A stretch of DNA of 49,426 nucleotides, from assembly GCA_947626685.1 (NCBI GenBank), contig CANQTD010000013.1, positions 1-49,426 on the forward strand, in the 5' to 3' direction. The stretch comes from an uncultured Clostridia bacterium. Lineage in GTDB: Bacteria > Bacillota > Clostridia > Christensenellales > Borkfalkiaceae. A model generated the notes under the pieces. The model was not told the origin of the DNA. It searched no databases and saw only the letters and a program-made list of their open reading frames with translations. Position 1 is the first letter of the stretch. Each line of letters begins with the position of its first letter. A program made the position numbers and the translations under genes. Positions 32,567 through 43,833 of this stretch are shown here, one piece after another.

Positions 32567-33658
32567 TTATATTCTGCGCCGCTTGACCAAGAATACAATC
32601 AAGCCGCACAATGAGGCTCCAACTGCGATGCCTGCCACACCGAAGATAATGCCGACAACCCAAGATGACTTCGGAGCATTAACCGTGGAAGAATTCTCGG
32701 CACTTGTAAACAAAAAGGTATCGATCACTTCGCCGCACTCCGTGCACTCCCTGTGCCAAGTCTGTACATCGGGATTCTCGGAGAGATCCGCGATCCATTC
32801 TCCCGGAGAATGGGGCGTCTTCTCGGTCTCATATAATGTCATCTGTGCGTTACAAATGAGACAGACGCGATAAACATACCCCGTAGCGCTACAAGTTGCC
32901 TTCTGCAAATATACCTCTTCGCTCCAGACATGAGCACATTGACCGAGAGGCGGAGTGTGTTCTTCTACGACCTTCTCGCCGCAGACTGTACAATCCTTGT
33001 GTCTGAGACCGCCGTCGTTTATTGTGGCCTCCACATCTGTGATCCAATCGCCGGGCGTATGCGGGAGCTTTGGGGATGTCGTGAGCGTCTCCTCCCTGCC
33101 GCAGACGGTGCAACACTGGTAGGTGCGCCCCTCCTCTGAGCAGGTTGCCTCCTGCGTAAAAGTCTCCGCCGCCCATATGTGGTCACAGAGAATGCCGACG
33201 ACGGACGGGAGTACGACAACGTCTATATCTTGTTCACTGTTTTTCAACACGGCACGGCATGTGAGCGGGATATCTGCCCAGCTATCGCTTTCCTTGATTC
33301 TGAACTTGAGTAGAGCAACCTCGCCATTCAGATCAGACGCGGAGGAAAAAAGAATAACGCCATTTTGATCTGTGTCGCTCCAGTCGGACATAAGCGCATT
33401 CCCTACCAGCCATTCGCCGTGAACATATTCGAGCATATCGGAGTCGTACTGCGGCACAAGCGCCATCGACTTGATGGACGGGCAGCCCGAGAGAACAACC
33501 TTGATCTCCACAGTCTCTCCCTTATGCGCCGCCGCCGCTGAAAAGGTGATCGTAGCGCCTGTCTCTTCAGCCGAAACTGTCAATGGCAACCCAATACATG
33601 GATATATGAACATCATCAACGCCATAAAGACTGTGATAAAAAACCTTTTCATGTACAT
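32567..33658 (-). CDS. Membrane-anchored cohesin-domain surface protein
   Basis: 363 residues. Signal peptide (about 1-30, ending TVSAEE). Residues ~34-160 read as a cohesin fold (ATITFSAAAAHKGETVEIKV, ALVPQYDSDMLEYV, GEVALLKFRIKE). About four cysteine-rich modules of the form H-x-W ... CS..G...YxCxxCG follow (160-325; some lack part of the cysteine set). A membrane helix (about 333-357, VVGIIFGVAGIAVGASLCGLIV) ends in KRRR. The orientation puts the cohesin outside. It lies 3 bp after the 1551-residue dockerin-bearing protein, whose stop is beside its ribosome site (GGTGAT). The pair resembles a minimal scaffoldin/dockerin system. Cohesin assignment is by pattern and has not been checked by profile. 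Confidence 0.75.
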   Translation of the reverse strand: MYMKRFFITVFMALMMFIYPCIGLPLTVSAEETGATITFSAAAAHKGETVEIKVVLSGCPSIKSMALVPQYDSDMLEYVHGEWLVGNALMSDWSDTDQNGVILFSSASDLNGEVALLKFRIKESDSWADIPLTCRAVLKNSEQDIDVVVLPSVVGILCDHIWAAETFTQEATCSEEGRTYQCCTVCGREETLTTSPKLPHTPGDWITDVEATINDGGLRHKDCTVCGEKVVEEHTPPLGQCAHVWSEEVYLQKATCSATGYVYRVCLICNAQMTLYETEKTPHSPGEWIADLSENPDVQTWHRECTECGEVIDTFLFTSAENSSTVNAPKSSWVVGIIFGVAGIAVGASLCGLIVFLVKRRRI

Positions 33659-33661
33659 ATA

Positions 33662-36600
33662 TCACCAATAGAGAGGATATTCATCCGGCAAGAGGGTGTT
33701 TCTCAGCAAATAGATCGCGTCGTCGCTGTTGACGGTGTCGTCCCCGTTCATGTCGCCGCTTTGGTTGAGGCCGAAGAGCGAGCCGCCAAAGAGCGTGTAC
33801 CGCAACAGGTAGACGGCGTCGTTATCATCTACGGAACCGTCACCGTTGAAGTCGCCGCGCGGGACGTCGATGACGCTCACGTTACCAGGAGCGACATCCA
33901 AAGTAACCGCACGATCGGAGCCACCATCATTGCTTGCATTGACCAGTGCAGAGCAGGAGATGGTATAATCCCCGGCAGGGCAACCATCTTTGACCTTAAG
34001 CACGAGCTCAAAGATATATGTATTTGACTCGGTATTTGCATCATATGTAAAAGTCGCCATCTCATTTTGGGCATCCCAGTCGGCGATGACACCTTCCACC
34101 TTCCACCTTCCCTCAACGATCTCAAGATGCGTCTTGTCATAGAGGAAGGAGTGAAGTAGCACAGATTTGACTGCAGGCATATTCGCAAAACTGAACTGCA
34201 CCACGACTTCTCCGCCCGCAACCGACGTTCTATTTTGGATCTTGAGTTGTGCGGCCGTGGACTCGATAACTTTCTGTGCAATCGTGATCTCGTACGTCAT
34301 CTCGTAGCCGTCGTACACGACCGTGATCGTATGCGAACCATATTTCGTCATCTCGGGAATACCGAACAGGCATTCCTCATCCGCCATGATACTATACACC
34401 ATGCCATCGCTCATCGTCTGTCTGAGAATAGGATATTCGAAAACGTCGTTGTATTGATAGTCCGTCTTTGTCTGGGTCAGATCGATCTCGATTTTCTCCA
34501 TCTTGACCTTGACAACTTCCACAGGTACAAAGCGCGTCTGCTCCTCTTCTCCGTATGCATAGGATAATCTAATTGCAGTGACGTAAATATCCTTGTCTGA
34601 GCCGTGCATGCTAAAATCATATTTGAAAGAATAATTCATGGAGGTCTTTCTCACACCGTCATCCATATAGGTCAACTCAATGACTGGATCGGTAAGGAGC
34701 TCCCCTTCCGTAAACTGCGTCTGTGTGATGGCGGCGACTCTCACGCGGTTCTCTGCCCAGGTTGCCTCCACTGTACCGCTGTACAACTGGGAATTATTTT
34801 CGTTTTGATTCGACGCCTCGACAACGTTCATAGTGCCGAGGACTTGCTTTACCGTAATGGAACCTTTGCCCAACGAAGTCTCAATGCTCCCTTCGCCGAC
34901 ATTGCGCGCAATCTTGTGTTTGATGAGTACAAAGGAAGCAGCGGGGTCATTGAAGGCTCCGGTTGCGTTGATGACGCCGCTGGAACAGGACTGCACGATA
35001 CGGCCCGCATTGATGCCGCTAATGCCGGATACGGCGATTTGAAGATCTTTGCTCGTCGCAATCTCGAGCGCGCTATTCTGTGCCGCACTCCAACACTCCT
35101 CAATCGTACCCGTCGAGTGATTGAAGCCCACAAGCCCGCCAACTGCAAGATCCGTGTTGCTACCCGCAGAGATATCGATATCCAGACTGCGCCTGGAGAT
35201 ATAGCCGCCCGCCGCGTCTGCACCGGAGGCAAACCAGAGTCCGTCGGCCGTCATCGCAAGCTGGTTCTTGTCCGCCTGCGAATCGGGTTCGTTTGTACCC
35301 CAGTTCGTGAAAGCCTCCCTCGTCGTTCCGCTTACGTAGTACTTTTCATCACTATAATTGTAGAAGAAAGCGTTCCCGTCCTCCCACGTCCAACTATTGA
35401 CATTTTCGCCATTGCGTTTTGCGCCCAACCAAAACATCTGATTGGTGACGGTGTGGTAGGTGAACAGCTTTTCTATGAGTTCCTGTTCGTTTGGGGAATG
35501 AATGGAGATCAATTTCTCTCCGGCACCGGAATCCACACAGCCGAGCGCCTCTTCGTATGGTTTGGAGCCGTCGTACAGCGTGTAAAGTGCACTTGCGGTG
35601 TATAATTTGACCCGTTCGAGCAGTTCATCATCATCGGGCACTGCGCCTTTTGCGCCGTCGGTGCCGTTGACCTGTGCGGATCTGCCCGTACCGCCTGCGC
35701 CGCCGGCTCCTCCAAGCCCCACGTCGTTGTCTGCGAGAATGATCTGTGCATTCCCGCGAGCTATGATGTCCATATCCTTATTGGAGATAGCTGAGCCGAA
35801 AAGTCCCCCCTGGCCGCCGTTGCCGCCCTGGCCACCGAGCCCGCGGGAGCCGTTATTGCCCAGGACGCCCCAGTGATTGCCGCCGCTTCCTCCGTTACCG
35901 CCTTGGCCGCCGTTGCCGCCCTGGCCGCCTTGCCCACCGTTGAAAACCACGATGCCGTCATATACGACCAAGCATTCCGAAGCCAATGCGTCTCCACCGA
36001 TGCCCCCTTGACCGCCATCGCCTCCAAGTCCGCCTTGGCCGCCGTTACCACCGTTGTAGCTGAAGGCACCGCCGCCGCTTCCCTTTCCGCCTGCGCTGCC
36101 GTTACCTCCCTGGCCGCCAAGACCGCCCAAGCCGCCATTCAATGTCAAACCGGCGCCGAGAGCGACCGATACGCGCTTGGCGCTCATGGCCGTGCCGCCA
36201 CACCCGCCCGGAAAGCCGACGCTGCCACTTTTCCCCTTCGGCCCCGTCTGTGTGATGCCGGAGGCATTGCCGACGGGGGCACCGTCTGCGCCCTTTTCGC
36301 CCGTCACGCCGCAGGCGCCGGAAATCGTAAGCGGGGCGGTCCCCGTGATCACGACGTCGTTCTTTGCGCTGATCGTGCTCGCGATTCCCTCCGTTGCGGC
36401 TGCAATCTCATTGCCACTGCCCTCGGAGACGATCCAAAGCGTTTTTTCTGCCCTGGTGCTGATCGCACCGTCGGCAAAGGTATAAGTAAAGTGTACATCT
36501 TGCAGCGCGATAACGCGATCCTGTTCGGAATTTTCCACGAAGAACGCAAGGCCGCTGTAAACTTTGTCGGGGTCGCCGATCACACGAATGGCCGATGCGC

Positions 36601-38317
36601 CTGCACCGAGGGTAATCATTTTTCCAATTTCTGTGGCATCTAACGAACGCAAGTCAAGGATGGTCGTTTTCCCAATCATTGCGGGAATCTCCGCTACCGT
36701 TGCGGGCGTCACTGTTTCTGCCGATGCAAAGAGAGTTTCCATGTCCAGCGTGGGCGCGTCGTCGGGGACTTCATTCTCCTCCACTTTGCCCTCATAGACG
36801 AGGTTAGAATTGATGTTCACATTGCTGTGGCAATTTTGGAGTCTGCCCCCGTTATAGCCGACGATGCCGCCCGCATATTCGACCGATTCATCTTCCAGCA
36901 TGATGTTCCCCTCTACGCTGAGGTTCTTGATGGTACCCGTGTTGTACCCGAACAGTCCGACGTAGGGTGTACTCGACCCGTCCGTCATGTGAATATTAAG
37001 GTTGCTGATCGTGTTTCCGTTTCCATCGAAGGTACCCCTGAAAGGCGTATTCTTGGAGCCGATGGGTTGCCAATCGGGATAGGCAGACATATCGATATCA
37101 CAGGCAAGGATATAGTTGCCGCGCAAGTCATTTCGGATCTCGTTCAGCTGTCTTGCAGAGGAGATGACTTTGTCATATGCGTTGTAGTCGAAATCCCCCT
37201 CGTTGACGGTCTTATAGACAAATTTTTTCAACAGGGAGTTGCTCTTGGCGGCGACTTGCTCGTTGTAATAATTTTGGAGTTCGGTCTTTCTCTCCGCATA
37301 TTGGGAGGGAAGCAGATCCCACATGGCAATGAGTGTCAGACCGCTGGACAGTACCTGGGCGTTCTCGTCGTCGACGCCATCCCCCCAACCATTCACGGAA
37401 GAAACGTCGGTCACATTGAGCTGTCCCTTAGAGGAGCCTCGCGAAAAAGTAGAAGTGCTTCTGATTTCTCCTTTTGTGTTGACGGACTGCGTTAGTTTGT
37501 TCTCCACCTTGGTCTGAAATTCTGCATCGGCGAAGGAGGACACCTTCGTGCTTCCACTCGCCTCTGCCGATGTCGACAGCTCAACGGAGGAAGATATTGC
37601 CACGTTGGCATACATGGAGGAGAAGGTGTACTCGCCGCCACGCTTATAGGACACAATGATATGCGTGCCGTATGTATCGAAAAAGTCCTTGGGCGACCAA
37701 GTGTACTGCGGGAAGGAATCCGTCAACGCGCCATAGACATTGGAGCGTAGATGCTCGCGAAGAGCCGCCGCGCTCCCCATGACGCCACCATTGTCCCAAT
37801 TCAACGTCCACGAATCAAGATATTTTTGATAATTATAAATCGTGTACTCGATTTCTGCAGAAGCGGAGAGTGAGGTGTCCAATCCCATGGAGAAACCCGC
37901 CTCCATTTTGGCGGATCCAATGACAAAGTTTGTGCTTGCACTCGCTTTAGTATTGAGATCGACCCCCATTGCGAGCGCAAGAGAAGCAAAACTCTTGCTT
38001 GTAAAGCCTTTCCCATAGCTTGTGGAAACCATGTCTTTACTGACCTCAAACGCGCTCAAGTCACTGTCGTCGAGTATGGTAACCAAATGATTCTGGGACA
38101 GAAGATCATCCGACCTATCGTTCGTATCGATGGTGCGCAGCAAGTTGACGCCGCGGCCAAGATAGCCGAGGTCATTGATTTCCTCGGGAACGCTCACCGT
38201 TGCGCTTGCATGGGTGAGGTCTCCGCCGACGACGAAACACGTCAACGCAAATACACAACTCAATGCAAGTGCACCAAAACGTTCCATTCCGATTTTTTTG
38301 CTTTTGTTGGCTTTCAT
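33662..38317 (-). CDS. Secreted MACPF - GLUG - Gly-rich - C-type lectin - cohesin - dockerin protein
   Basis: 1551 residues. Signal peptide (to about 39, ASA). The MACPF domain (about 45-370) contains the signature YGTHIIVSYKRGG (216-228). GLUG-type repeats follow at about 425-500 (FRGTFDGNGNTISNLNI, GLFGYNTGTIKNLSVEGN, GGIVGYNGGRLQNC). A glycine-rich, collagen-like stretch spans 670-890 (GGQGGNGG repeats). A C-type-lectin-like domain (about 910-1035) carries WLGAKRN, WTWEDG and TNWGTNEPDS. A beta region comes next, then a cohesin-like domain (about 1330-1465) and a C-terminal dockerin (last ~70 residues) with two Ca2+ loops, DFNGDGSVDDND and DMNGDDTVNSDD. AAAGGAG precedes the start by ten bases. 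It likely attaches to the neighbouring cohesin protein, presenting a pore-forming or adhesive module at the cell surface. Confidence 0.85.
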   Translation of the reverse strand: MKANKSKKIGMERFGALALSCVFALTCFVVGGDLTHASATVSVPEEINDLGYLGRGVNLLRTIDTNDRSDDLLSQNHLVTILDDSDLSAFEVSKDMVSTSYGKGFTSKSFASLALAMGVDLNTKASASTNFVIGSAKMEAGFSMGLDTSLSASAEIEYTIYNYQKYLDSWTLNWDNGGVMGSAAALREHLRSNVYGALTDSFPQYTWSPKDFFDTYGTHIIVSYKRGGEYTFSSMYANVAISSSVELSTSAEASGSTKVSSFADAEFQTKVENKLTQSVNTKGEIRSTSTFSRGSSKGQLNVTDVSSVNGWGDGVDDENAQVLSSGLTLIAMWDLLPSQYAERKTELQNYYNEQVAAKSNSLLKKFVYKTVNEGDFDYNAYDKVISSARQLNEIRNDLRGNYILACDIDMSAYPDWQPIGSKNTPFRGTFDGNGNTISNLNIHMTDGSSTPYVGLFGYNTGTIKNLSVEGNIMLEDESVEYAGGIVGYNGGRLQNCHSNVNINSNLVYEGKVEENEVPDDAPTLDMETLFASAETVTPATVAEIPAMIGKTTILDLRSLDATEIGKMITLGAGASAIRVIGDPDKVYSGLAFFVENSEQDRVIALQDVHFTYTFADGAISTRAEKTLWIVSEGSGNEIAAATEGIASTISAKNDVVITGTAPLTISGACGVTGEKGADGAPVGNASGITQTGPKGKSGSVGFPGGCGGTAMSAKRVSVALGAGLTLNGGLGGLGGQGGNGSAGGKGSGGGAFSYNGGNGGQGGLGGDGGQGGIGGDALASECLVVYDGIVVFNGGQGGQGGNGGQGGNGGSGGNHWGVLGNNGSRGLGGQGGNGGQGGLFGSAISNKDMDIIARGNAQIILADNDVGLGGAGGAGGTGRSAQVNGTDGAKGAVPDDDELLERVKLYTASALYTLYDGSKPYEEALGCVDSGAGEKLISIHSPNEQELIEKLFTYHTVTNQMFWLGAKRNGENVNSWTWEDGNAFFYNYSDEKYYVSGTTREAFTNWGTNEPDSQADKNQLAMTADGLWFASGADAAGGYISRRSLDIDISAGSNTDLAVGGLVGFNHSTGTIEECWSAAQNSALEIATSKDLQIAVSGISGINAGRIVQSCSSGVINATGAFNDPAASFVLIKHKIARNVGEGSIETSLGKGSITVKQVLGTMNVVEASNQNENNSQLYSGTVEATWAENRVRVAAITQTQFTEGELLTDPVIELTYMDDGVRKTSMNYSFKYDFSMHGSDKDIYVTAIRLSYAYGEEEQTRFVPVEVVKVKMEKIEIDLTQTKTDYQYNDVFEYPILRQTMSDGMVYSIMADEECLFGIPEMTKYGSHTITVVYDGYEMTYEITIAQKVIESTAAQLKIQNRTSVAGGEVVVQFSFANMPAVKSVLLHSFLYDKTHLEIVEGRWKVEGVIADWDAQNEMATFTYDANTESNTYIFELVLKVKDGCPAGDYTISCSALVNASNDGGSDRAVTLDVAPGNVSVIDVPRGDFNGDGSVDDNDAVYLLRYTLFGGSLFGLNQSGDMNGDDTVNSDDAIYLLRNTLLPDEYPLYW

Positions 38318-38348
38318 TGTACAAATACTCCTTTAATTTTATAGCTAT

Positions 38349-38357
38349 ATTATACCA
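38349..38357 (-). promoter_or_regulatory. Extended -10 promoter of the MACPF gene
   Basis: TGGTATAAT on the minus strand (TATAAT at 38349-38354), 32 bp before the start codon. No obvious -35. It lies just inside or after the 39-residue ORF, so the MACPF gene may be read both from here and from upstream. Confidence 0.45.
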
Positions 38358-38358
38358 A

Positions 38359-38478
38359 TTAAAAAGTCGGCTCTTCTGTTTTGCAGAGGAGTGCTTTGAG
38401 TTTCCTCAACCAATAATAAGCAACTGATCCAATTGGACTTTCGAAAGTGTTTTCTTTAGACATATCAAATTCAGTCAT
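38359..38478 (-). CDS. 39-residue ORF ahead of the MACPF gene
   Basis: The frame MTEFDMSKENTF ... ALLCKTEEPTF reads from ATG 38478 to TAA with GAGGGTG upstream at correct spacing. It has a central amphipathic/hydrophobic segment (SVAYYWLRKLKALL). No family is recognised. It sits in the leader of the MACPF gene and could be a small membrane-associated peptide or a leader ORF that tunes expression. Confidence 0.45.
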   Translation of the reverse strand: MTEFDMSKENTFESPIGSVAYYWLRKLKALLCKTEEPTF

Positions 38479-38744: not shown

Positions 38745-38780
38745 ACGCCCCAAAAGCAGAACGACTTTTGAGGCGTTTTT
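38745..38780. terminator. Terminator copied with the phosphoesterase fragment
   Basis: ACGCCCCAAAAGC ... GACTTTTGAGGCGT hairpin followed by TTTTT on the plus strand. It is nearly identical to the terminator at 42254-42289. Confidence 0.75.
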
Positions 38781-38912: not shown

Positions 38913-40718
38913 CTATTTGTTGATGGGTTGGAAGATGAACACGTTTTGTTCATAAGATTTTGAAGTCAGTTCTTCGAGCCCCAGCCCCGTCTCCGTGCGA
39001 ACGACGCGGTAGTATTTCGTCTCGTTCATCCCTCTGTGACGGTATACATGGTCCACTTTGTAGGAGTCGTTTCCGACGTGAAGGTAATAATTGTCTACAC
39101 TCTCCAATTCAAAATCGCCCAACGGGATAAAGTCATCGCTCATGACCGTCACCAATTTGCCGACGCATTCGGCGAGGTCAACGGGGCAATAAGACAATTT
39201 GCCGCCGATCTCTCCAAGCAACATATCGAATTCGTCGTCGAACCACTCTGCCTCCGCTTCCGAAACGAGCCCCGTCTCCAATCCTTCCCCGCAGGCAAGC
39301 ACCGATCCGTCACGGACATAGGCAGACCCCGATCCGTCAAAGATGGAAAGGTTCTCATACATTCCGAGAAACTTGTTATAATACTCCGCCCATTCGCGGT
39401 TATCCCAATGCAACTTCAAAAGTCCATGATTTTCGTACGGAACAGGGACGCCTTCGACCATTTGATGGGCGATCGTACGATAATTACCCACGCTAAGAGT
39501 ACCCAAGCGGTAAACATTGCCCTCTGCCTGTACATAGCCCCCCCGCTCGGTATAAAATAGTTTTTTATCTCGATCGATCCCTTTAATTACGGAATTGCAG
39601 ATGTATGCCCAACCGTCACGCGCCCAAAATGCTTCTTGTATGAAAACATCTTTGTTGGGCATGACGTCGGTAAAAATGAGATTGTTATCCCCGTCCACAG
39701 AGAGGGTGTAGACCGATGAGACCGCTGACGTAACGTCAATGCCGACGGCAAGGCCGTTCACAAAACCGCAGATATTCAGACCCTCGATCTTATAAATATA
39801 CCCCGTGCTGTTGTCGATGACAAAGGAGGCCGAGAGCGCGCTGGTGTAATACATAGGATTGCCTCCTGCGATTCTATCTTCATACTGGACTCGTTCCGCG
39901 TCAAAACTCGTCGCCCCATTCTCATCATACATCAACCCTTCCGGACGGATATCGACATACTCGGAGCTGCGTTTTCCGTTCGCATCCCTGTAATCGTAAT
40001 AGCCCGACTTCTCCACCTTCGCCACATATTGGATGAAGGTGAACCGCTCCGTCGTGTACAGGCGGTTGATCTGCGCGTCAAGTTCTTCCTGCTCAATGCG
40101 GCGGTCTTCATCGATGAGATTGCCGTTGTTGTCGTAGACGTCCTCCGTCACCTCCCTGTTCTTCATGAAGGTCACTTTGGCGACGCTTGCCTCGTCGTAC
40201 TCCACATTGCCCGCCTCATAGCTCTCCGTGGTGCTGTAAAGGTAGTTGTACTCCCTATCCGACTTGTCGAGCGGTTGAACGCCGCGGTTTTCCACGATCT
40301 GCCCGGAAAGAAGGGAGACGGCGGGCCCCACGTCACGGCCTGCGGAGGCGGGCGAAGCGGCGGGTCCCGCTTCCCTGCGGATGCTATAAGCCGTAACGCC
40401 CTCGTTGTCCACCATGAGATTTTCCATATATTCCAACTTGATGGAGTTTACGATATGGATGCGAGGAATGAAAACCGCGAGCAGAGGCGTCACGACCGCC
40501 ACCAGCGCGACGCTTGCAAAGATTGCCGTCCACCGAACAGGATGACGCCGCAAAGTGTTCTTTTTGGAAGAGGCCGCCTCGGGTGCGGCACGGCGGGCGC
40601 GCTCCGTCCCCTCCTCTGCGGCGCGGAGTTGCCGTACCCGTTGTTTCATACGGCCGGTGAGAGCGGGCTTCGCTTCGTCGATAAACACAAACTGTGTCAT
40701 ATAGTCCCGGTATGTCAT
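38913..40718 (-). CDS. Large anti-sigma-factor-like membrane protein
   Basis: 601 residues. A ~65-residue basic cytoplasmic N-terminus (MTYRDYMTQFVFIDEAKPAL ... RMKQRVRQL), one membrane helix (about 70-92, WTAIFASVALVAVVTPLLAVFI), then ~500 extracellular residues with no recognised domain. This is the topology of ECF anti-sigma sensors. Start 40718 has GAGGAGGAA upstream, and ATGA overlaps the restored stop of the ECF sigma gene, as in genuine sigma/anti-sigma pairs. It lies between the ECF gene and the surface operon, so it may sense extracellular conditions that control the MACPF/cohesin genes. Confidence 0.75.
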   Translation of the reverse strand: MTYRDYMTQFVFIDEAKPALTGRMKQRVRQLRAAEEGTERARRAAPEAASSKKNTLRRHPVRWTAIFASVALVAVVTPLLAVFIPRIHIVNSIKLEYMENLMVDNEGVTAYSIRREAGPAASPASAGRDVGPAVSLLSGQIVENRGVQPLDKSDREYNYLYSTTESYEAGNVEYDEASVAKVTFMKNREVTEDVYDNNGNLIDEDRRIEQEELDAQINRLYTTERFTFIQYVAKVEKSGYYDYRDANGKRSSEYVDIRPEGLMYDENGATSFDAERVQYEDRIAGGNPMYYTSALSASFVIDNSTGYIYKIEGLNICGFVNGLAVGIDVTSAVSSVYTLSVDGDNNLIFTDVMPNKDVFIQEAFWARDGWAYICNSVIKGIDRDKKLFYTERGGYVQAEGNVYRLGTLSVGNYRTIAHQMVEGVPVPYENHGLLKLHWDNREWAEYYNKFLGMYENLSIFDGSGSAYVRDGSVLACGEGLETGLVSEAEAEWFDDEFDMLLGEIGGKLSYCPVDLAECVGKLVTVMSDDFIPLGDFELESVDNYYLHVGNDSYKVDHVYRHRGMNETKYYRVVRTETGLGLEELTSKSYEQNVFIFQPINK

Positions 40719-41208
40719 ACTTCCTCCTCTGAAAGATACACTTTCAACTTTTCGCGTGAGCGGGACAGGCATTTCTGGATCGCCCGATCCGTTTTGCCGA
40801 GCAGCCCCGCGATCTCCTTCGCGGTATATCCTTCGTAATAATGGAGATAGACCGCTTCCCGCGCAACCACAGAGACTTGTCCATTGCCGTTTCGAGGTCC
40901 TCGGTCTCCCCTCCGTTTCGCTGTTGGGACGCGCCGTACGTCGTTTCCCGTTTCCTGCGCCGCGCGTTGCCCTTCGCGAGATTTTTGCTCTTATTGATGG
41001 CGACCCTGATCAGCCATGCCTTCATGTGCTCGTCGCTCTCAAAGCCCACGCAGAACGCGCGGTCCATGAGTTGCAGCAAAACGTCTTGCACGACGTCCTC
41101 CGCGTCGGGCGCATTCCGCACATATTGGTACGACACCCTGAAAAGCATATTCGCATAACGCTCTACTACGCTTTGCACAAAGGCGTCGTCAATACATGAT
41201 TTGTACAT
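40715..41208 (-). pseudogene. ECF sigma factor gene with single-base frameshift
   Basis: The first ~110 codons give sigma region 2 (VVERYANMLFRVSYQYVRNAPDAEDVVQDVLLQLM, HMKAWLIRVAINKSKNL). Near 40876-40878 the frame shifts by one base. Region 4 continues in the other frame: AVYLHYYEGYTAKEIAGLLG and KTDRAIQKCLSRSREKL, ending at TGA that overlaps the anti-sigma ATG. Adding one base after AAG restores a normal ~164-residue protein. Unrepaired, the product lacks region 4 and could not read a -35. Cause unknown: real mutation, or a sequencing or assembly error. Ribosome site GGAAGG precedes the start. Confidence 0.85.
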
Positions 41209-43029: not shown

Positions 43030-43833
43030 TTATTGATCGAAGTCTGAGTCGCCGTATTTGGCGAGAAATTCCTCGTATGTGATGAGGACTTTGCGCGACT
43101 CGGCACGGTTGTCAAACGGCGTCACATACCCCAAATCTTCCATCCATTCTATGATCTTTCCCGCGCGGTTATAACCGACGGCGCATTTGCGTTGGATGAA
43201 AGAGATCGACGCCTTCCCCTCCTTGATCACAAGTTTCAGAGCCTTGAGATAGACGGGGTTCAACTCGGGGGCCTCCGGTTCGGCCGTTTCGTTTTGAACA
43301 TTTTGAAGGATTTGAACGTTTTGAAGGGCAGCCTCTTCACGCTTTTCCGCCTCGTTGAGCGCGCAGCTCAACCCCCAAAGGAGTTTCGTCGCCGTCCTGT
43401 GCGCCTGCGGCCATTCGCTTGCACTCGGCCCGGTAATGTTTAAGGTCAACCCTTCGCCGAAAGCCATCAGCCATGCCGCGACCGCGAACGCGCTGTCCGC
43501 GTTCCAAACCTTCAAAAGAGGACGCCCCATCTCTCTGGCGGCCTTTTCCGCAACGCTCGCATTGCCCGAGAGGGCCTCGGTGCCGGGATAAATGATGAGC
43601 GTCAAGTGTGAATCCCTCACGTTCCACTGCGCCTGTTGCGCGGTATCGGAGGACGGGGTCTCCTTGAGCTCGGGGAAATGCGTCTTGAGCCCGGGAGGGT
43701 TCGGCGTATCCTCCGCCCACCCGTTTTGAGGACACCAACCCGAAATGGGGATCTCGTTCTCCCTCGCGAAATCGAGGGCCGCGCGCTCGACGCCCGTCTG
43801 CCCTCCCGACATAATAAAAGCGATCTTTTTCAT
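43030..43833 (-). CDS. SLOG (MoCo-carrier-like) domain fused to FtsK-gamma winged helix
   Basis: 267 residues. Residues 1-150 match the putative molybdenum-cofactor-carrier family of the SLOG superfamily: MKKIAFIMSGGQTGVERAAL, ISGWCPQNGWAED, RDSHLTLIIYPG, GRPLLKVW. After a linker with repeated LQNVQ, the last ~75 residues match the FtsK gamma domain (LVIKEGKASISFIQRKCAVG, YNRAGKIIEWMEDLGYV), a winged helix that reads polar DNA motifs in FtsK. A nucleotide-binding Rossmann domain joined to a DNA-binding winged helix recalls DprA in layout. TTGCAA-17-TAAAAT (43924-43952) provides a promoter. Confidence 0.8.
   Translation of the reverse strand: MKKIAFIMSGGQTGVERAALDFARENEIPISGWCPQNGWAEDTPNPPGLKTHFPELKETPSSDTAQQAQWNVRDSHLTLIIYPGTEALSGNASVAEKAAREMGRPLLKVWNADSAFAVAAWLMAFGEGLTLNITGPSASEWPQAHRTATKLLWGLSCALNEAEKREEAALQNVQILQNVQNETAEPEAPELNPVYLKALKLVIKEGKASISFIQRKCAVGYNRAGKIIEWMEDLGYVTPFDNRAESRKVLITYEEFLAKYGDSDFDQ

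Follow-up and report, generated by a model that had tools for sequence, protein, structure and literature searches.

A dockerin-bearing MACPF protein encoded next to a membrane-anchored cohesin protein in an uncultured Clostridia bacterium

We analysed a stretch of 49,426 nucleotides (the window) from an uncultured Clostridia bacterium of the family Borkfalkiaceae (contig CANQTD010000013.1 of assembly GCA_947626685.1), in which two adjacent genes on the reverse strand encode a predicted secreted MACPF protein of 1551 amino acids (aa) with a cohesin-like region and a dockerin at its C-terminus (gene A) and a predicted membrane protein with a single cohesin (gene B). The reading we consider probable is that the two constitute a dedicated surface-display operon with one cargo and one anchor. 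It is built on the domains themselves, the order of the two genes and the recurrence of that order, and the absence of other detected dockerins or cohesins in the genome; from these we infer binding between A and B, surface display, clustering, pore formation and the nature of the target. The features of the pair, all on the reverse strand, are:

33662..38317, reverse strand: gene A, secreted protein running from MACPF to cohesin-dockerin, 1551 aa (open reading frame (ORF) list and domain evidence)
38204..38317, reverse strand: signal peptide-like N-terminus of gene A, residues 1-38, end approximate (hydrophobicity)
37223..38200, reverse strand: MACPF domain, residues 40-365 (Pfam, PDB profile matches, predicted model with structure comparison)
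36803..37165, reverse strand: GLUG-like region, residues 385-505 (Pfam Glug below cut-off)
35618..36400, reverse strand: Gly-rich stretch, residues 640-900 (composition)
35186..35626, reverse strand: C-type-lectin-like domain lacking the EPN/WND sugar-site motifs, residues 898-1044 (profile against solved structures, motif table)
33863..34270, reverse strand: cohesin of gene A, residues 1350-1485 (sub-threshold Pfam and family profile)
33665..33859, reverse strand: two-loop type I dockerin of gene A, residues 1487-1551 (Pfam, loop table)
32567..33658, reverse strand: gene B, membrane-anchored cohesin protein, 363 aa (ORF list, Pfam, hydrophobicity)
33566..33658, reverse strand: signal peptide-like N-terminus of gene B, end approximate (hydrophobicity)
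33194..33565, reverse strand: cohesin of gene B, ends approximate (Pfam above cut-off)
32708..33193, reverse strand: Cys-rich repeats of gene B, a possible stalk (solved-structure profile match)
32579..32671, reverse strand: C-terminal membrane helix of gene B, followed by KRRRI (hydrophobicity)

The pair appears to be self-contained within its genome, an assembly of 1.78 Mb in 52 contigs that is 98% complete. A whole-genome Pfam search recovered a single MACPF domain, a single dockerin above the cut-off and a pair of cohesins, of which one is sub-threshold; all of these lie in A and B. Since Pfam finds no other dockerin above the cut-off and no other cohesin, the modules of the two proteins have no other detected partner in the genome. 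The two cohesins reside in two different proteins, there being no protein with two cohesins by Pfam, and the same search found no dockerin-bearing glycoside hydrolase, the mark of a cellulosome in the available part of PMC11557425. A candidate second dockerin on contig C3 (E 0.26) was rejected because it consists of one loop, located in an ORF that looks peptidase-like and has an HE-type motif recognised by eye. Two further genomes with the pair are similar: G018 has one dockerin and two cohesins, while G885 has one dockerin and cohesins that are visible with a purpose-built profile and not with Pfam.

Domain architecture of the two proteins

The presence of a MACPF domain in gene A, as claimed in the original prediction, is borne out by several lines of evidence. 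Pfam detects it at 31.6 bits against a cut-off of 21.5 (PF01823, 2.3e-7, residues 210-323), and the MACPF signature, whose general form is Y-G-T/S-H-x(7)-G-G, is represented by YGTHIIVSYKRGG at residues 216-228 and retained with small changes in all 14 aligned sequences. The predicted model has the MACPF/CDC fold, with structure comparison placing MACPF proteins at the top, many of them pore formers; rows 40-50 of the same comparison hold two further MACPF entries, a CDC-like pore, a CDC, gasdermins, RCD-1 and an aegerolysin pore. The best matches by both sequence profile and fold include the solved bacterial MACPF proteins 2qp2 (which we take to be Plu-MACPF), GNIP1Aa and Mpf2Ba1, none of which, to our knowledge, has a cohesin or dockerin. 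The amphipathicity of the two hairpins was set aside as proof of pore formation: the fraction of shuffles reaching the window's value is 0.067 for hairpin 1 and 0.031 for hairpin 2, and the relatives are mixed.

Beyond its signal peptide, a sequence scan of gene A revealed no further membrane helix, LPxTG motif or lipobox. The GLUG repeats proposed earlier are better described as a GLUG-like region, for the Pfam Glug score of 18.3 bits falls below the cut-off of 20.5; most of the listed family matches are located here. The long Gly-rich stretch is as anticipated, with 34% Gly, 21 overlapping GGxGG motifs and Gly columns that are conserved in the alignment. NCBIfam yielded no match in either gene.

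The next domain was predicted to be C-type-lectin-like and, by extension, sugar-binding; the fold assignment is supported and the function is not. Pfam gives no Lectin_C (PF00059) match in gene A itself, and the distant relatives P0011 and P0014 pass at the aligned position. A profile of gene A with six of its eight close relatives matches solved C-type lectins, with single-domain chains from 1e-6; its best value of 1.7e-21 is a sum over several domains of one receptor, the best single domain of which reaches 0.01 (108 distinct solved sequences at E <=1, of which the best 60 were viewed). In C-type lectins the Ca-dependent sugar site is marked by the motifs EPN/QPD and WND. Neither an EPN nor a WND-type motif occurs in gene A or its eight close relatives (0/9), so sugar binding by gene A is unsupported: it has EPD and WFA at the respective places, and the clade as a whole (9/9) shows EPD, EPH, EPT, QPS or QPT together with WFA, WYA, WYS, WSA or WVT. 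All five distant relatives, in contrast, possess EPN with WND, WSD or WDD. Hence, it is conceivable that the ancestral domain bound sugars with Ca, while that of the gene A clade probably binds something else or binds differently.

The cohesin of gene A is supported at the level of the family rather than of the single sequence. Its Pfam score (PF00963, 22 bits) lies under the cut-off of 24.1, but we regard the region as cohesin-like because the aligned stretch passes the cut-off in three of six relatives scanned (P0009, P0011 and P0014); the cohesin-dockerin profile also matches solved cohesins at 7.3e-5. The dockerin that follows was correctly identified as a two-loop module: it scores 25.4 bits against a cut-off of 22.9 (Dockerin_1, PF00404, 1.7e-5), and both Ca-binding loops have D, N, D, D/N and D at places 1, 3, 5, 9 and 12. 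The first of these loops starts about four residues or less from the last cohesin strand, the end of which was placed by eye; because of this proximity, the cohesin of gene A probably does not bind its own dockerin.

A closer look at the dockerin loops revealed that they differ from each other at positions 10-11, which presumably have a role in binding, in all ten tails of the clade (the window, P0001-P0008 and G018): one loop has DN, DE, EE, EN, NE or ED as against SD in the other. In 12 of 13 other tails, including those of six more distant MACPF proteins, the two loops are identical at these positions, the exception being G1054 with TV as opposed to MV. This pattern of difference within the clade and identity in most other tails fits a dockerin whose two faces have grown different, one of which could serve the anchor and the other the next A.

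Gene B likewise agrees with the predicted neighbouring membrane protein: its cohesin passes the Pfam cut-off (PF00963, 25.3 bits against 24.1, 1.9e-5) and is flanked by a signal peptide-like start and, at the other end of the protein, the membrane helix. The cohesins of A and B are just 23% identical. In gene B, residues 176-239 align with a portion of an IgA protease of known structure (9qa6, E 1.4e-8), and repeats resembling the Cys-rich ones of gene B were seen by eye in P0011, P0012, P0014 and the cargos of G035. The gap between the genes, given earlier as three bases, holds if counted to the first ATG of gene B (TGA, one codon, ATG). The second ATG lies 9 nucleotides (nt) from gene A and fits the length of P0035, the database twin of gene B (361 aa, 100% identity). 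The end coordinate of the original prediction, 38478, is 161 bases beyond the start of gene A.

Recurrence and distribution among relatives

When the cohesin-dockerin profile was run against 398 family genomes (E 1e-6), eight gave a match, and the A-B pair is present in three of the 398, the genome under study included. The two-gene module singled out by the original prediction is indeed found elsewhere, with B following A or an A tail at 16-18 nt in two other genomes. In L058, a Clostridia MAG (metagenome-assembled genome; JAIDSQ010000003.1), an A of 1549 aa is followed by a B of 313 aa at a distance of 18 nt; L058, G885 and G978 are one genome, apparently of this family, contig C104 of G978 agreeing with L058 in contig number, match coordinates and length. 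G018, of the same family, retains the final part of A (335 aa from the first ATG; 61% identical over residues 1189-1551) followed by B 16 nt on. A MACPF match was not detected there; upstream sits an ORF judged by eye to be acyltransferase-like. Decay, rearrangement or misassembly would each account for this tail-only state.

Five of the eight matching genomes (G000, G978, G018, G1054 and G035) encode a cohesin-dockerin cargo, which in every case has a distinct cohesin protein as its immediate neighbour. For instance, G1054, of the same genus (L097 5377-9874), has a 1225-aa frame with Big_3, cohesin and dockerin domains and an N-terminal part that is helical by eye, followed by a 268-aa cohesin protein that has a C-terminal helix and a linker rich in Gln and Gly. 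G035 (L098 951-15108) has a pair of small cohesin proteins bearing a lipobox-like Cys, set between cargo frames of 1905 and 2170 aa; as the small proteins look like lipoproteins, the anchor there may be a lipid rather than a helix. No MACPF domain was found in the cohesin-dockerin cargos of G1054 and G035, and the other cargos of the family feature List_Bact_rpt, Big_3 and sub-threshold GLUG domains. The occurrence of non-MACPF cargo beside a cohesin protein in G1054 and G035 suggests that the cargo-plus-anchor arrangement for display is wider than the MACPF cargo. The remaining three genomes are G052, with two cohesins in a 660-aa frame that has a C-terminal helix by eye, G1043, with one cohesin in a 775-aa frame, and G078, with an LRR-like frame bearing a dockerin that is known from a 1959-base piece.

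In the protein database, gene A has eight close relatives of like length (P0001-P0008), with best local alignments 50-62% identical, then P0009 at 44% and the more distant P0010-P0012 and P0014, all of which carry a MACPF listing. Among 2381 candidates, 38 proteins match the tail of gene A at E <= 0.001: eight of these are P0001-P0008, P0042-P0044 are also MACPF proteins, and about half of the matches cover the dockerin alone (~30% of the query). The accessions on the other tail matches presumably denote LRR, M23, transglutaminase, CHAP or M14 domains. Across P0039-P0068, a cohesin-dockerin or dockerin tail is common to proteins with LRR, peptidase, CHAP and transglutaminase accessions. There is thus a hint, at the level of such accessions, of a wider non-cellulosomal surface proteome built on dockerins.

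At the higher ranks, the MACPF profile matches 10 of 396 genomes of the order and two of 391 of the class, again counting the genome under study. None of nine MACPF loci of the order has a cohesin or dockerin in the stretches inspected (4-17 kb, some ending at contig ends); the MACPF frame was recovered by script in eight of them, the exception being L054, and the class-level match G729 falls outside this set. A scan of genome contigs with P0003 gave no match and one with the MACPF alignment A4 a single locus. Proteins of the gene A type are rare and patchy among genomes.

Proposed mechanism and alternatives

The display system we favour would operate as follows. Gene A would be exported through its signal peptide and, having no detected anchor of its own, its dockerin would be captured by the cohesin at the outer end of the membrane protein B. 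The perforin-like protein would thereby be retained on the surface of the producer, above the Cys-rich repeats of B, by means of module types familiar chiefly from complexes that degrade cellulose and mucin. The cohesin of gene A might then take the dockerin of a second A, resulting in extension or clustering of A on one anchor and in the higher local density that ring-forming MACPF proteins need. The likeliest role of such a device would be contact-range attack on other cells, be they bacteria, host cells or protists. Head-to-tail chains of A, raised in the original prediction, are possible. A bolder form of the idea would make dedicated one-cargo, one-anchor operons of this type a novel kind of surface weapon: with cohesin and dockerin in one chain, the cargo would double as its own scaffold, and perforin-like proteins would polymerise head to tail on a membrane cohesin, pre-clustered for pores. 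This strikes us as doubtful.

It is possible, if distinctly less probable than display of a weapon, that A is instead a large adhesin with a non-lytic MACPF domain used for binding or oligomerisation, forming adhesive or surface-coat fibres tied to the membrane by B. Such a role would suit the GLUG-like, Gly-rich, Ig-like and C-type-lectin-like parts, which we take to be usual in adhesins, as well as the presence of the same tails on database proteins with what are presumably LRR, M23, transglutaminase and CHAP accessions and the repeat-bearing cargos elsewhere in the family; the unconvincing hairpin amphipathicity points the same way. On the other hand, the retention of the MACPF signature in all aligned sequences and the many pore formers among the top structural matches argue against this role. 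Were the dockerin of A to bind only the cohesin of another A, soluble chains would form, and B would anchor something else or bind nothing. The cohesins of G018, where Pfam gives 31 bits for that of A and 20 for that of B, and the low identity between the window's two cohesins are in keeping with such chains, but we find them improbable given that B follows A or an A tail in all three family genomes in which B was found and that searches turned up no alternative dockerin as a partner for B. A remnant or minimal form of a cellulosome-like or mucinolysome-like system is a further reading, the dockerin (type I) and the cohesins belonging to the families used in such systems; in the genome, however, neither a two-cohesin protein nor a dockerin-bearing glycoside hydrolase was found (criterion as in the available part of PMC11557425), making this very improbable.

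The view in the original prediction that cohesin-dockerin systems assemble cellulases is incomplete, as Clostridium perfringens toxin complexes and mucinolysomes use them too according to the available text of PMC12997984. In the C. perfringens complexes, single cohesins and dockerins link secreted tissue-damaging proteins that are not cellulases, and the GH31 protein bears a cohesin plus a dockerin, as gene A does; however, the cargo there comprises glycoside hydrolases, and the proteins with cohesins and those with dockerins number five each (PMC12997984, same portion), whereas the two-gene operon considered here has a single MACPF cargo and a single membrane anchor. For C. perfringens, the same article benchmarks a pDockQ threshold of 0.3 for predicted pairs, at a recall of 1.0 and a precision of 0.82. 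In the scaffoldin terms of PMC11557425, as far as its available sections define them, gene B fits 'nonSLH-anchoring' (cohesin plus C-terminal membrane helix) and gene A is formally a 'monovalent adaptor' (one cohesin plus one dockerin). Here, however, no multi-cohesin scaffoldin or dockerin-bearing hydrolase was found, and the 'adaptor' itself bears the MACPF cargo. The anchor type of gene B is not new, since single-cohesin proteins with a C-terminal membrane helix are noted in Lachnoclostridium sp. MSJ-17, which is presumably non-cellulolytic (PMC11557425, same sections). In that organism, dockerin proteins number up to 39 and a scaffoldin carries two cohesins, as against a single dockerin protein adjoining its anchor here.

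The BSAPs, antimicrobial MACPF proteins of gut Bacteroidales, resemble gene A in being destined for the cell exterior and offer a precedent for surface-held MACPF weapons (PMC12853789, available part). They are lipoproteins held by a lipidated Cys, whereas gene A lacks a lipobox and its attachment would depend on the dockerin-cohesin pair. The same part of that article describes the BSAP receptors as outer-membrane proteins, a lipoprotein or surface glycans, and places the receptor specificity of BSAP-1 in a separate domain. In the open-licence literature searched, MACPF is not named together with dockerin, and neither dockerin with perforin nor 'bacterial MACPF' with Clostridia gave any co-mention. 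Co-mentions of MACPF with cohesin, among the matches listed, look unrelated by title and abstract start, and those of dockerin with pore-forming include none that names such a protein in these places. If the display reading is correct, cohesin-dockerin assembly in small-genome Clostridia would display a perforin-family protein, uniting two fields unlinked in that literature, and cohesin-dockerin modules would form self-contained operons for a single cargo, not components of large scaffolds. The pairing, polarity and clustering would then be testable using two proteins.

Genomic neighbourhood of the pair

The region upstream of gene A contains one further feature of relevance to its transcription:

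38745..38776, reverse strand: hairpin resembling a terminator, with 13 pairs, in the interval that separates gene A from the anti-sigma-like gene upstream of it (hairpin scan)

Because this hairpin precedes A and the scan listed none in the gap between A and B, the two genes probably constitute a transcript of their own; across the stretch as a whole, six terminator-like sites were found against 5.9 expected by chance. Mobile-element origin was considered and finds no support: the plasmid collection contains nothing that matches gene B, viral contigs nothing that matches the MACPF alignment A4, and Pfam recognised no mobile gene among 19 flanking and other ORFs scanned, a subset of those in the window. 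Two flanking genes vary within the genus, the anti-sigma-like gene being present in 3 of 61 genomes and a HAD gene in 14 of 61, the genome under study included, for which reason the locus is probably part of an accessory region.

The product of the anti-sigma-like gene, 619 aa long, has one stretch that resembles a membrane helix and is without a Pfam match. The gene overlaps the end of one for a sigma-70 region 2 protein just upstream of it; the two, at 38913-41208, are likely a sigma/anti-sigma pair. Elsewhere in the window, at 43030-43833, a single ORF fuses a cpYpsA SLOG domain with an FtsK gamma domain.

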